The notes beneath the pieces were generated by a model that saw only the letters and a program-made list of their open reading frames with translations, was not told the origin of the DNA and made no database searches. Made by a program: the position numbers and the translations under genes. A DNA stretch of 64,000 bases from Aurantiochytrium sp. KH105. Its lineage: Eukaryota > Sar > Bigyra > Thraustochytrida > Thraustochytriidae. Shown here piece after piece: positions 25,657 through 49,184 of the stretch. The first letter of the stretch is position 1. Every line of letters begins with the position of its first letter. The stretch spans positions 253,880 to 317,879 of the forward strand of contig BGKB01000005.1 of assembly GCA_003116975.1 (NCBI GenBank), given 5' to 3'.

Positions 25657-25837
25657 GCAAGTCGGCTATAGCCCGCCGCCGCAAGTCGGCTATAGCCCGC
25701 GGCCAAGTGGGCTGTGGCGCGCGCAAGTCGAGCATCGCGGCCCCGGCCGCCGCGGGCCGCTGCAAGTGCAGAATGCGGCGCGCAAGTGGGGAATGGGCGG
25801 CGCGCAAGTGCGCGGGGCGCGCGCAAGTGGGCCAAAT
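25657..25837 (+). promoter_or_regulatory. Array of GCAAGT-N4-(A/T)AT elements, eight sites
   Basis: Sites start at 25657, 25681, 25703 (CCAAGT variant), 25723, 25762, 25782, 25804 and 25823. The steps are 24, 22, 20, 39, 20, 22 and 19 bp, close to two helical turns. Full matches are GCAAGTCGGCTAT (twice), GCAAGTCGAGCAT, GCAAGTGCAGAAT and GCAAGTGGGGAAT; the other three are partial. All are in plus orientation. The array lies between the bL31m-like gene (start 25521) and the sulfhydrylase fusion (start 25996), so it could serve both. Confidence 0.75.
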
Positions 25838-25995
25838 GTAATCGCGCCACGTGCGGCAGCGGCGGCGTCAAATCCCAAAGCTGGCCAGGCCAGCCGGCGC
25901 GCCAGAGCAGCCCGGGTCTGTCTGCAGAGGCAGGCACCGCAGACCTGCATCGCGTCGCGTGGCTGCAAAAGAGACGCGGAGAAGAGAACCGCGAG

Positions 25996-28023
25996 ATGTT
26001 GCCGCGCGCGACGAGCTCGCTCGCAAGAGTAGCCGCGGCGACGCGGCACCATGGGAGCCGCGCTTGCGCCGCGGCGCTGTACACGACGAGCGCGACCTCG
26101 AGGAGCGCGAGGACGCCCGTGATCTCGTCGCGGCTGACGCAGCCTGTGCAGAGGACGGGAAAGCGGACGCTGGCGAGCGACGCGACCACGGAGAATGCCA
26201 GCCTGCCGCCGCTCGAGTACGAGGATGAGTTTCTGGGATCCATTCTGGCGTCGACAAAGCGCATCGCCATGATCGGCGCGAGCGGAAACTGGAAAAGACC
26301 CTCGTATTTTGCCATGAAGTACCTGCAAAAGAAGGGCTACGAAGTTATTCCCGTCAACCCGGGCATGGCGGGCAAGGAGATCCTCGGCGCAAAGTGTTAC
26401 GCCTCTCTGGCCGAAGTCCCTGGCCCAATCGACATGGTCGATATCTTTCGAAGCTCGGACGCCGCGCTCGAGGTAACAAAGGACGCAATCCAGCGCAAAG
26501 ATGAAAAGAACATTCGCGTTGTTTGGATGCAGCTTGGCGTGCGGAACGAGGAAGCTCGCGAGCTTTGCGAGGCCAACGGCGTCCAGGTCGTCATGGACCG
26601 TTGTCCCAAAATCGAATTCTCCCGCCTCTTTGGCGAGCTAGGCTGGCATGGATTTAATAGTGGTGTCATCAGCAGCAAGCGCAGACAGGTTGGACGCGCC
26701 CCCGGCGCTGGCAGCAGCCAGTCTGCGCCAACGTTCTCGGGTCTCGAAACACGCTGCATCCATTCCGGAACACCCCCCGACGCCAACACTGGAGCCCGCG
26801 CCTTTCCCATTTACCAAACGTCTGGATACGTCTTTGAGGACGTCGACGACGCCGCGAGCCTTTTCAACTTGCAGTCCTTTGGCAACATCTACGGACGTCT
26901 GAGCAACCCGACAGTGGCCGCCCTCGAGGAGCGCATTTGCACACTGGAAGGTGGACGCGGCGCCACCTGCACGGCATCTGGCCACGCGGCGCAGCTTGTC
27001 GCGCTATTTACGCTCATGGGTCCGGGAGACCACTTTGTGGCCTCCAAGAACCTTTACGGTGGATCTTTCAACCAGTTCAAGAAAATGCAGGAAAAGTTTG
27101 GCTGGACCTGCACGCACGTTGATGTCGATGATCCCAGCGCCGTGCGCGAGGCGCTCAGTCATCCTCGCTGCAAGCTTCTTTGGATAGAGAGTCTCGCAAA
27201 TCCTGGTGGCGTTATTTCTGATATCGAAATGCTTTCTGGCCTCACAAAGGAAGCCGGTGTCCCACTGGCTGTCGATAACACCATGGCCACCCCTGCGCTC
27301 TGCCAACCAGGTGCATTTGGCGCTGACCTGGTCGTGCACAGCACTACAAAGTTTCTCTCGGGCAACGGCACCTCGCTCGGTGGTTGCGTCGTTGACATGG
27401 GTTCCTTCGACTGGAGTTCCGTTCCCGCCGACAAGTTCCCGAGTCTCACGCAGCCCGAGCCTGGTTACCATGGCCTTACCTTTTGGGAAAGCTTTGGCGA
27501 CCTCGCGTTCACAACTCATGCTCACACCGTCGGTCTGCGCGACCTTGGTCCCACTATGGCACCCATGAATGCCTTTCTCACGCTACTTGGTACCGAAACC
27601 TTGGCGCTGCGCATGGATCGGCACGTTGAGAACGCCTCAAAGGTCGCTACTTTTCTTGAAGCGCAGCCCGAGGTGGCATGGGTCTCGTACGCAGGTCTCG
27701 AGTCCTCCTCCTACTACACGCGTGCGCAAAAGTATCTTCCTCGCGGAGCTGGCAGCGTTTTCACATTTGGTCTCAAGGGCGGATACAAGGCCGGCGTCGA
27801 CTTCGTAGAGAACCTCCATCTCGTCTCGCATGTAGCCAATCTTGGAGACTCTCGATCTCTGGCCCTTCATCCTGCTTCCACAACGCACCGACAGCTCAGT
27901 GACGAGCAGCGCACAGCCGCCGGCGCCGGGGATGATGTCATTCGTCTCAGCATTGGATTGGAGACGGCTGAAGACATTATCAGCGACATGAAGCATGCCT
28001 TTTCCAAGATTGTGCAAGTCTAA
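25996..28023 (+). CDS. Fusion: CoA-binding (YccU-like) domain + O-acetylhomoserine sulfhydrylase
   Basis: ATG 25996 gives 675 residues with an Arg/Ser/Ala presequence (MLPRATSSLARVAAATRHHG), probably mitochondrial. The 94 upstream in-frame codons cross the regulatory array and were rejected. Residues ~85-205 form a Rossmann CoA-binding domain (IAMIGASGNWKRPSYFAMKY, VDIFRSSDAALEV, VWMQLGV). Residues ~250-675 are a Cys/Met-metabolism PLP enzyme, with SNPTVAALEERICTLEGG, the cofactor Asp in PLAVDNTMATP and Schiff-base Lys452 in STTKFLSGNG. This subgroup makes homocysteine from O-acetylhomoserine and sulfide. The CoA domain might sense CoA or redox state or aid acetyl-group channelling; that is speculative. 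Enzyme call strong. Confidence 0.9.
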   Translation: MLPRATSSLARVAAATRHHGSRACAAALYTTSATSRSARTPVISSRLTQPVQRTGKRTLASDATTENASLPPLEYEDEFLGSILASTKRIAMIGASGNWKRPSYFAMKYLQKKGYEVIPVNPGMAGKEILGAKCYASLAEVPGPIDMVDIFRSSDAALEVTKDAIQRKDEKNIRVVWMQLGVRNEEARELCEANGVQVVMDRCPKIEFSRLFGELGWHGFNSGVISSKRRQVGRAPGAGSSQSAPTFSGLETRCIHSGTPPDANTGARAFPIYQTSGYVFEDVDDAASLFNLQSFGNIYGRLSNPTVAALEERICTLEGGRGATCTASGHAAQLVALFTLMGPGDHFVASKNLYGGSFNQFKKMQEKFGWTCTHVDVDDPSAVREALSHPRCKLLWIESLANPGGVISDIEMLSGLTKEAGVPLAVDNTMATPALCQPGAFGADLVVHSTTKFLSGNGTSLGGCVVDMGSFDWSSVPADKFPSLTQPEPGYHGLTFWESFGDLAFTTHAHTVGLRDLGPTMAPMNAFLTLLGTETLALRMDRHVENASKVATFLEAQPEVAWVSYAGLESSSYYTRAQKYLPRGAGSVFTFGLKGGYKAGVDFVENLHLVSHVANLGDSRSLALHPASTTHRQLSDEQRTAAGAGDDVIRLSIGLETAEDIISDMKHAFSKIVQV

Positions 28024-28403
28024 TTCCGTATTGTATTTTGGAGGGGAAACAAGAATGTGCTCTTCTAACTTTTATTGTGGTTCCCGGTGGTTCCTCAGAA
28101 TAAGTGTATTTTGTCTTGAAAGCAATGAAAACTGAAAAATGATTCCTTCGAAAAGGCCATGGGCGAATTGTCTGTAATGTAGACAGTCGGGATGATCGAC
28201 AGGAACGCCAATTCCTCAGTTCTGACTTCACCTGGATGTTTTGCCTAAAAACGATGCAATGCACGAATGCCGCATGTCTTACGGACAACTTCAAACATAC
28301 CGCATAAACGGTTCTGACAGGAAAATACGATTCTTAAGTTTACACGCACATACAAAATTGAGATGCCGATGATAGCGCAGCTCTGCAACAGTAAGGAAAG
28401 TGC
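28024..28403. other. Convergent intergenic region
   Basis: AT-richer sequence between two gene ends; no gene or repeat is seen. Confidence 0.5.
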
Positions 28404-48463: not shown

Positions 48464-48715
48464 CTTGCTTGTCCTTGCGGCGCTTGACTGCTGACTGCTG
48501 TCTGCTTTGCTTTTGCTTTTTTGCTTTTGCTTTTGCTTTCCCTGTCTGTACGTGCAGTCGCGACCAAGATCGGCGCAAAGGAAACGGCACAGCGTGAGCG
48601 TCAGTCCCCCCTATTCTCTCCATTTGATTTCACCCCGCCCTCCCCGAGGTCCTGTCCTGCATCATGTCTCGCGCATCCGGGCCTCCTCGTCTTCCCGCCA
48701 AGCCCGTCTTCGGGG

Positions 48716-48755
48716 CCTCGCCTCGCCTCGCCTCGCCTCGCCTCGCCTCGCGTCG
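48716..48755. repeat. (CCTCG)n pentanucleotide repeat
   Basis: About seven to eight tandem cctcg units lie in the GAPDH upstream region. Confidence 0.9.
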
Positions 48756-49130
48756 CTTCATGCGCGTCGCGTCGGCGCAGCCCAGCCCGGGCCTCTCCTC
48801 GCGCGTAGTCTCCCTCTCCCTCGCGTCCTGTGCGTCCCTGTCACGGACGGCGTCCGGGTCCATCCTCACATCCCATCCATCATCCTCGTCCCAGCCCGCG
48901 CCGGCCGCCCCGCGCGGCGGCGGCGGCAGGGGCAAAGGCTGCGCGGCGGCGGGCGCGGCCGCGCGGCCTCCCGCGCGCGCGGGCGGCGGGCGCGGCGCCG
49001 CGGGCGGTGGCGGGGCCGCGCGTACTTACCGGTCTCGGTCCCGCGAGGTCTGTCTGCGGATTAGGATTTGGATTCGCGCTCGCTGCGGATCGCCGCCGCA
49101 AAGCAAACAAACTGCGGCTGGCCGCCGGCC

Positions 49131-49184
49131 GCAAGTCGGCTATGCGCGCGCGCAAGTGCGGAATCCGGCGGCCAACCCGAGTAT
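49131..49184 (+). promoter_or_regulatory. GCAAGT-N4-(A/T)AT element pair, plus a degenerate third copy
   Basis: GCAAGTCGGCTAT at 49131-49143 and GCAAGTGCGGAAT at 49152-49164 are 21 bp apart. A degenerate CCAACCCGAGTAT at 49172-49184 keeps the 20-bp step. The array is ~670 bp upstream of GAPDH and ~250 bp before the small plus-strand frame at 49434. Confidence 0.65.

Follow-up and report, generated by a model that had tools for sequence, protein, structure and literature searches.

A 13-bp promoter-side word arranged on a 21-bp grid in both orientations in the thraustochytrid Aurantiochytrium sp. KH105

The 13-bp word GCAAGTNNNNWAT was investigated in a 64-kb stretch of DNA from Aurantiochytrium sp. 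KH105 (contig BGKB01000005.1, C5:253880-317879, G+C 57%; the whole of this stretch is called the window) and in the assembly to which it belongs (76.03 Mb, 367 contigs). The word is a real, genome-wide, sharply defined and promoter-side element. Many of its copies stand in arrays upstream of genes, on a grid of about 21 bp that is common to both orientations. The arrays are probably the sites of a putative promoter factor that packs cooperatively along the DNA; we infer protein binding, its cooperativity and the activation of transcription from the geometry, the placement and the constraint of the sites.

Abundance and letters of the element

The window held 15 exact matches to GCAAGTNNNNWAT, compared with a mean of 0.75 in 100 shuffles (standard deviation 0.87, largest 4), and 47 matches against 18.5 expected when one mismatch was allowed. 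Thirteen of the 15 were located within five upstream regions, and the remaining two (5229-5241 and 52981-52993) were within long frames and look like chance occurrences. In the assembly, 1615 forward and 1636 reverse matches were obtained (3251), and the reversed pattern, used as the control, gave 140 and 131 (271). Both haplotypes are kept in the assembly, with about 38 Mb per haplotype (half of 76 Mb), so the genome-wide counts are roughly doubled. The sites were clustered: 45 of 100 listed exact sites were at most 150 bp from another exact match, in 16 clusters. The two-unit pattern was also found elsewhere, in 95 stretches of viral_contigs and at least 120 of genome_contigs (257 billion prokaryote bases). 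The latter were taken as chance, with our own chance estimate for the prokaryote bases being about 150, and the viral matches were likewise read as chance, the estimate covering the prokaryote set only. The arrays of the window were as follows.

25657-25835, plus strand: array 1; exact sites at 25657, 25681, 25762 and 25782, degenerate sites at 25723, 25804 and 25823; steps of 24 bp (25657/25681) and 20 bp (25762/25782)
32307-32385, minus strand: array 2; exact sites 32307-32319, 32351-32363 and 32373-32385, one-mismatch site 32328-32340; steps of 21, 23 and 22 bp
38998-39053, both strands: array 3, the inverted form; core at 38998 (+), exact site 39017-39029 (-), core at 39041 (+)
42511-42589, minus strand: array 4a; exact site 42511-42523, one-mismatch sites 42533-42545 and 42577-42589; steps of 22 and 44 bp
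42811-42844, minus strand: array 4b, in the same upstream region as 4a; exact sites 42811-42823 and 42832-42844; step of 21 bp
49131-49164, plus strand: array 5; exact sites at 49131 and 49152; step of 21 bp; about 670 bp upstream of GAPDH

The letter profile was obtained from 90 exact sites in arrays, with haplotype partners dropped. The base preceding the motif was C in 80% of the sites, position 7 was G in 81%, and position 8 was C or G. Position 9 was G (68%) or A (22%), position 10 was mostly C or G, and A and T were about equally frequent at position 11. Accordingly, the array consensus was about CGCAAGTGSRSWATS, with spacers mostly of G+C and with nearly all motif-adjacent spacer positions being G or C. 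Apart from the A at position 9, the A/T letters of the arrays were nearly confined to AA (3-4), T (6) and WAT (11-13).

Spacing grid and orientation

Same-strand pairs were searched as two copies with 0-30 bases between them (start-to-start up to 43 bp). The whole assembly contained 240 + 240 (480) such pairs, compared with 0 + 0 for the reversed pattern. Among 100 listed pairs, 77 had steps of 20-23 bp, 33 of these being exactly 21 bp; none had a step of 25-33 bp, 12 were at 41-43 bp, which is the edge of the search, and 11 were elsewhere. The pair listings include haplotype partners, and the listed pairs are therefore only partly independent. Degenerate sites were on the grid too, with five one-mismatch and nine two-mismatch sites at 20-23 bp. 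Furthermore, the direct distances between GCAAGT cores in the fetched regions had further peaks near 42, 83, 104, 125 and 147 bp and were blurred at 59-66 bp; pairs within one array are not independent in this count, and for many of the regions the presence of a pair was the reason for fetching them.

Inverted pairs were found in both arrangements. Tail-to-tail pairs were present at 88 places, and at none for the reversed pattern, in the searched range of 25-55 bp (the pattern is self-complementary, and the two strands give the same places). The distances of 50 of the 88 were listed: 25 were at 30-32 bp and 22 at 52-54 bp, which places 47 of the 50 on the grid, while 3 were at 42 bp and none elsewhere in the range. 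The head-to-head pattern had 171 + 167 hits, compared with 0 for the reversed pattern, in a search that demanded one complete site only and listed a pair of two exact sites twice; 83 of 100 listed distances were at 10-13 bp. Both arrangements occur in array 3, where the distance is 31 bp tail-to-tail from 38998 (+) to 39029 (-) and 12 bp head-to-head from 39029 (-) to 39041 (+), the neighbours of the exact site being cores without WAT.

The mean steps were 21.35 bp for direct pairs (20-23), 30.96 bp for tail-to-tail pairs (30-32) and 11.65 bp for head-to-head pairs (10-13). The tail-to-tail and head-to-head means add up to 42.61 bp, compared with 42.70 bp for the doubled direct step, an equality required of any footprint that is indifferent to orientation, and both place the centre of the site about 4.8 bases after its first G. 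A site may accordingly flip about this centre while staying on the 21-bp grid. The distances of inverted neighbours, 31 or 53 bp when tail-to-tail and 11-12 bp when head-to-head, are odd half-steps of 21 bp. Of the distances that a purely helical rule would permit, a direct step of 31 bp was found in 0 of 100 listed pairs, an inverted distance of 22 bp in 4 of 100 and one of 42 bp in 3 of 50; one core pair at 32 bp was present in the fetched regions. The phase is not simply helical, with same-strand copies standing almost only at even helical turns. On the simplest reading, each unit would be a footprint roughly 21 bp long, packed edge to edge in either orientation.

These results bear on the original prediction, which had been made from the letters of the window. 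The recurring word was found where it had been described, and the proposed spacing peak at 19-24 bp was in agreement with the direct pairs. The proposed helical phasing was correct as to regular steps and not as to a simply helical rule. The middle four letters had been described as varying, and orientation as uniform within each tandem array; the former was at odds with the constraint at positions 7 to 10, and the latter, as a rule, was contradicted by the inverted pairs across the genome. Moreover, the region at 39.0 kb had been regarded as a dyad relative of the word. It does belong to the recurrence, but it is the inverted arrangement of one element, not a separate form.

Placement, constraint and flanking genes

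The placement was analyzed in 38 arrays: 26 from the fetched regions, 5 from the window, and 7 taken in list order from contigs C6, C8 and C9. An array was defined as a group of at least two exact sites within 350 bp, with the exception of the 39.0-kb array (one exact site and two cores). The single-site loci L001-L003, the haplotype partners C15:429084 and C19:60436, and C21 were dropped from the count. Coding starts were predicted from open frames, with a codon score trained on the window and a cut-off of 15 for the first set and 8 for L075-L081. All 38 arrays were outside codon-scored frames. Among the 59 flanking frames within 2 kb, 53 were directed away from their array, and the other 6 faced it (binomial p = 9 × 10−11). 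The upstream regions that contained the arrays were rich in G+C and often separated divergent genes. Runs of either sign preceded genes on either side; the orientation of an array relative to its gene looks free. In the region L022-L025, eight exact sites of both signs were within 586 bp. The proposal of a recurrent promoter-side element that is read on one face of the helix was supported. No similarity over 100 bp was detected by blast among the regions of the sampled arrays, and the fetched regions matched only their haplotype partners.

The presence of both haplotypes, indicated by a partner locus for 14 of 15 proteasome loci, allowed the constraint to be estimated. C21:382001-410000 matched 22.5-52 kb of the window at about 93-95%, and the two haplotypes differed by about 5-7% across the blocks that were aligned. 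Five window regions were aligned with C21, and the comparison thus concerns one haplotype pair in one region. At the conserved bases of 13 exact sites, 0 of 117 differed. At the N4 bases, 2 of 52 differed, and the spacers had 16 substitutions and one gap in 379 (N4 plus spacer 19/431). The flanks, with some coding sequence included, had 176 substitutions in 2489 aligned bases (7.1%), plus 119 gapped. The invariance of the conserved bases had p values of 2 × 10−4 against flank substitutions and 0.01 against N4 plus spacer.

The flanking genes were identified by a Pfam scan of 55 array-flanking frames at E up to 1e-4 (one batch up to 1e-3), with a few small frames in L077, L079 and L080 omitted. 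A Pfam family was assigned to 39 of the 55, one of them (TPT) below its curated cut-off; two matches (carboxyl transferase and RING) were to genes whose 3' end faces the array. Ten unnamed frames gave nothing above the cut-off when rescanned at E up to 1. Seven of the 39 were ribosomal-protein families (L7Ae-type, S9, L13e, L14, S10, L22e and L16), and the divergent pairs S9/L13e and L14/S10 surrounded one array region each (L049 and L022). The p value of 7 in 39 was 3 × 10−7 if 80 of about 7000 Pfam-named genes are assumed to be ribosomal and 3 × 10−5 if 160 are; none of the 12 other Pfam-named genes of the window was ribosomal. A KOW search for ribosomal proteins, with six matches, was not used. 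At least three further flanking genes were translation or ribosome-biogenesis factors. The families beside arrays also included eIF3e N-terminal, MIF4G, Nop14, PMC2NT/exonuclease (Rrp6-type) and a TFIIS-type zinc ribbon. In addition, two TCP1/cpn60 genes, CK2 beta, UFD1, Rpn13 (a 19S subunit), 14-3-3 and EMP70 were found beside arrays.

By our reading, about 4 of the 39 were mitochondrial (acyl-CoA dehydrogenase, a lipoyl/E3-binding subunit, a carrier and the NDUFA9-like gene) and 3 belonged to central metabolism. Among the flanking genes, ribosomal proteins and translation were better represented than mitochondrial functions, and the earlier description of the genes as mostly mitochondrial or of central metabolism was not supported. 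A mitochondrial regulon as the main theme was also considered and was not supported: 1 of 9 scored carrier loci on C1-C20 had a listed array, with haplotypes collapsed by hand, 150 of 327 candidates scored, and pair lists that omit lone sites. Carriers with arrays were also present at C3 (L026) and C85.

The genes and other features of the window, named by Pfam unless stated otherwise, were as follows.

25060-25521, minus strand: small frame on the other side of array 1
25996-28023, plus strand: fusion of a CoA-binding domain and a Cys/Met-metabolism PLP enzyme (sulfhydrylase-type); adjoins array 1
32934-34253, plus strand: Mo25-like gene; downstream of array 2
36552-38426, minus strand: peroxin-3-like gene (PEX3); other flank of array 3
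39394-40950, plus strand: ribose-phosphate pyrophosphokinase-like gene (PRPS); adjoins array 3
43035-44192, plus strand: NAD-binding epimerase-fold gene, plausibly NDUFA9-like; downstream of arrays 4a and 4b
47450-48463, minus strand: GAPDH gene; adjoins array 5
39103-39152, no strand assigned: three copies of the palindromic relative CAAGTGC-N-GGTTAACC, beside array 3
83-1828, 12373-14577, 59837-63748 and 55257-56921: genes with no adjoining array

The original names MO25, PRPS, PEX3, GAPDH and the CoA-binding/sulfhydrylase-type fusion were supported by Pfam. NDUFA9 is plausible, with Pfam giving the NAD-binding epimerase fold, and bL31m for the frame 25060-25521 was unconfirmed, with no Pfam match even at E 1. 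The last entry of the list, with no adjoining array, covers WRKY19-type zinc-finger repeats, two myosin heads and a wax ester synthase/DGAT. The palindromic CAAGTGC-N-GGTTAACC is a separate, rare element, which was found at 13 places genome-wide compared with 1 for the reversed pattern (C5, C20, C21, C44, C121, C122 and C220); some of these places were inverted pairs. A PfaA-like polyunsaturated fatty acid (PUFA) synthase piece was observed on C72 (305786-314912) and C155 with 930 bits, the whole-protein cut-off of 1010 not being reached, and a second frame, in the opposite orientation about 5 kb away, had a partial match to model positions 189-467. Taken with the G+C content of the window and the size of the haplotypes, this is consistent with a thraustochytrid.

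Comparison with known systems and interpretation

Known motifs were screened in 38 array neighbourhoods (26,781 bases), with a shuffle of two-base blocks as the control. The motif words (Rap1, CCAAT, ETS, NRF1 and others) were consensus forms, the Rap1 consensus being taken as ACACCCRYACAY. This consensus was not found in the neighbourhoods, and none was expected; the same was the case for the DREF and RRPE words. CACGTG, CCAAT, ETS, NRF1, telobox, telomere, site II, TATA, Abf1 and PAC words were at or below expectation there. Reb1-like words (3 vs 1.8) and GTTAAC (6 vs 3.8) were compared with the control in the same way, and GGGCGG (128 vs 83) fits the G+C spacers. CGGTTAACC was found 4 times against 0.2 and may be compared with the palindromic relative beside array 3. 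TCATTY was observed 21 times against 8.

Promoter elements with helical or repeated spacing have been described in other organisms. In the available text on budding yeast, Rap1 and Mcm1 sites of ribosomal protein promoters lie on the same side of the helix, with spacing peaks at 54, 65 and 74 bp (PMC6173580). The present arrays resemble them as putative regulator sites on one helix side, some of them upstream of ribosomal protein genes, but they have another word, homotypic runs, a 21-bp grid of both orientations, and genes beyond the ribosomal proteins. The Localized Tandem Sequence Motif (LTSM) of human ribosomal protein genes, related to NonO/SFPQ, is described as an ATC-N7-ATC word of strict orientation, located 52-82 bp downstream of the start site (PMC3262029). 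It is likewise a short repeated word in translation-gene promoters with near-helical internal spacing, whereas GCAAGTN4WAT is found in either orientation and lies upstream of predicted coding starts. For NRF1, NFY and Sp1 in human promoters, a helical preference of about 10.5 bp, stronger without a canonical Initiator, is given in the available text (PMC11269187). That phase is relative to the start site, unlike the phase between copies of one site with a 21-bp step found here. Furthermore, the INR, FPR and DPEP of oomycetes, also a stramenopile group, are described as orientation-biased core promoter elements near the start site (PMC3599244), while the present element has both orientations and lies further upstream, at widely varying distances from predicted coding starts.

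An orientation-indifferent homotypic 21-bp grid was not found in the available text of the compared Rap1/Mcm1, LTSM and NRF1/NFY/Sp1 accounts. Homotypic arrays of regulator sites are already known; the orientation-free 21-bp lattice and the putative factor set the present arrays apart. The original prediction knew of no described element of this form, and the best-ranked titles of a literature search, with most subscription literature outside it, likewise described none for labyrinthulomycetes. A search by motif letters gave matches via the 9-mer GCAAGTGCG only, on unrelated topics among the matches listed, and a word search of the available text of Phytophthora motif papers, supplements excluded, gave no GCAAG.

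The proposed mechanism is as follows. Each 13-bp word (about CGCAAGTGSRSWATS) would be bound by a single nuclear protein that recognises this sequence. Its footprint would cover about 21 bp, equal to two helical turns, with the centre close to the G-T step of GCAAGT. Adjacent units would line up along one face of the DNA, whichever way each is oriented; a run contains two to four exact sites, and more once weaker members are included. Neighbouring units would stabilise each other, so that weak on-grid sites could also be used. The runs might then keep the promoter open and recruit the transcription machinery, and the most likely outcome would be that a growth regulon is transcribed strongly and in coordination, with genes for ribosomal proteins, translation, ribosome biogenesis, chaperonins and central metabolism. 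A cooperative binding protein had already been proposed in the original prediction; it is still inferred, and the case for it is stronger now because both orientations share one grid.

Several observations weigh against this mechanism or narrow it. With respect to the grid, 17 of the 100 listed head-to-head distances were scattered off it, as were several direct pairs, and 55 of 100 listed exact sites had no exact neighbour within 150 bp, being alone or with degenerate partners only. The distance from array to predicted coding start was broad (131-1651 bp, median 549). Mechanical ATG frames cover the arrays at 25.7, 42.5-42.8 and 49.1 kb in G+C-rich DNA; the codon score rejected these frames, and the one scanned, 49061-49951, had no Pfam family. 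In the middle five letters, direct neighbours were 75% alike, compared with 56% for shuffled partners (33 pairs; 0 of 2000 shuffles reached 75%), and the identity of their six spacer letters was 60%, compared with 52% (p = 0.0065, 33 pairs). Because neighbouring units share middle and spacer letters above the shuffle, the result suggests that some arrays grew by local duplication, and part of the regularity may derive from that. Moreover, arrays also flank Kelch, ankyrin, GST, sulfotransferase, TPT-like transporter and PGA_cap genes, and amino acid transporter, RAB3GAP2 and cNMP-binding genes, which have no growth theme. For the 20S proteasome, the 1.2 kb upstream of the domain held an exact site in 1 of 15 loci and none in 14; in the sole positive locus, a core accompanied the exact site at a distance of 22 bp, and the array also adjoined an L7Ae-family gene on its far side. 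Among the strong L7Ae-family loci, 2 of 5 had arrays (C1 and C23), and those on C142, C17 and C4 had no exact site within 1.2 kb. A universal housekeeping element was rejected on the proteasome count. Since 14 of 15 proteasome and 3 of 5 L7Ae loci had no exact site, the element is neither a universal housekeeping nor a universal ribosomal signal. It is perhaps the regulon mark of a few hundred genes, a rough estimate from the 480 direct pairs over two haplotypes.

The same observations can be read in other ways. Yeast general factors of the architectural kind also mark ribosomal promoters, and the arrays stand in very G+C-rich regions, often between divergent genes, so a factor of chromatin architecture or replication (a boundary, nucleosome-excluding or origin protein) might bind them, and their effect on transcription would be indirect only. 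This is unlikely, as the lean to ribosomal and growth genes and the 14 proteasome loci without sites suggest a role tied to a gene set, and origins are not expected to track gene function. The bipartite motif with its looser middle would also suit two proteins, one reading GCAAGT and the other (A/T)AT, with the grid arising from their alternate packing. We regard this as quite improbable: the two parts are 4 bases apart by the search pattern, which covers this internal distance only, while units are separated by distances that vary by 2-3 bp, which points to one protein per unit.

The confinement of A/T letters to positions 3-4, 6 and 11-13 amid G+C spacers could point to a DNA-mechanical signal, with A/T steps every 10.6 bp or so that position nucleosomes or bend the DNA. 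Such a signal is very doubtful, because same-strand copies avoid 31 bp, which is also a number of whole turns, inverted copies are rare at even turns, and the letters of the word were unchanged between haplotypes. Finally, it is hardly credible that the arrays are functionless minisatellites or remnants of mobile elements. The likeness of neighbouring units would fit this origin, but tandem slippage does not yield inverted units on a common grid, the fetched regions lack flanking similarity over 100 bp except with their haplotype partners, and the conserved bases were the same in both haplotypes. A minisatellite has head-to-tail copies with similar spacers, whereas the arrays have inverted copies on the grid and adjacent spacers that are only 60% identical; with several copies of a constrained word upstream of genes, they have the arrangement of homotypic clusters of transcription-factor sites.

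Labyrinthulomycetes are oil-producing marine protists with industrial use. For the putative cooperatively packing factor, the sharply defined site could serve as a bait, growth and ribosomal genes could serve as the readout, and the arrays could provide parts for native promoters. The 21-bp grid of both orientations is a clear structural prediction on how the protein would be packed along the DNA. More tentatively, a labyrinthulomycete DNA-binding protein might form an orientation-indifferent side-by-side polymer, with one subunit for every two turns, over 100-150 bp or more of the promoter, and might be the main ribosome-and-growth switch of the lineage. If this is true, the promoter code would be set by a packing lattice, and neither the orientation of the sites nor how far they lie from the start site would define it.

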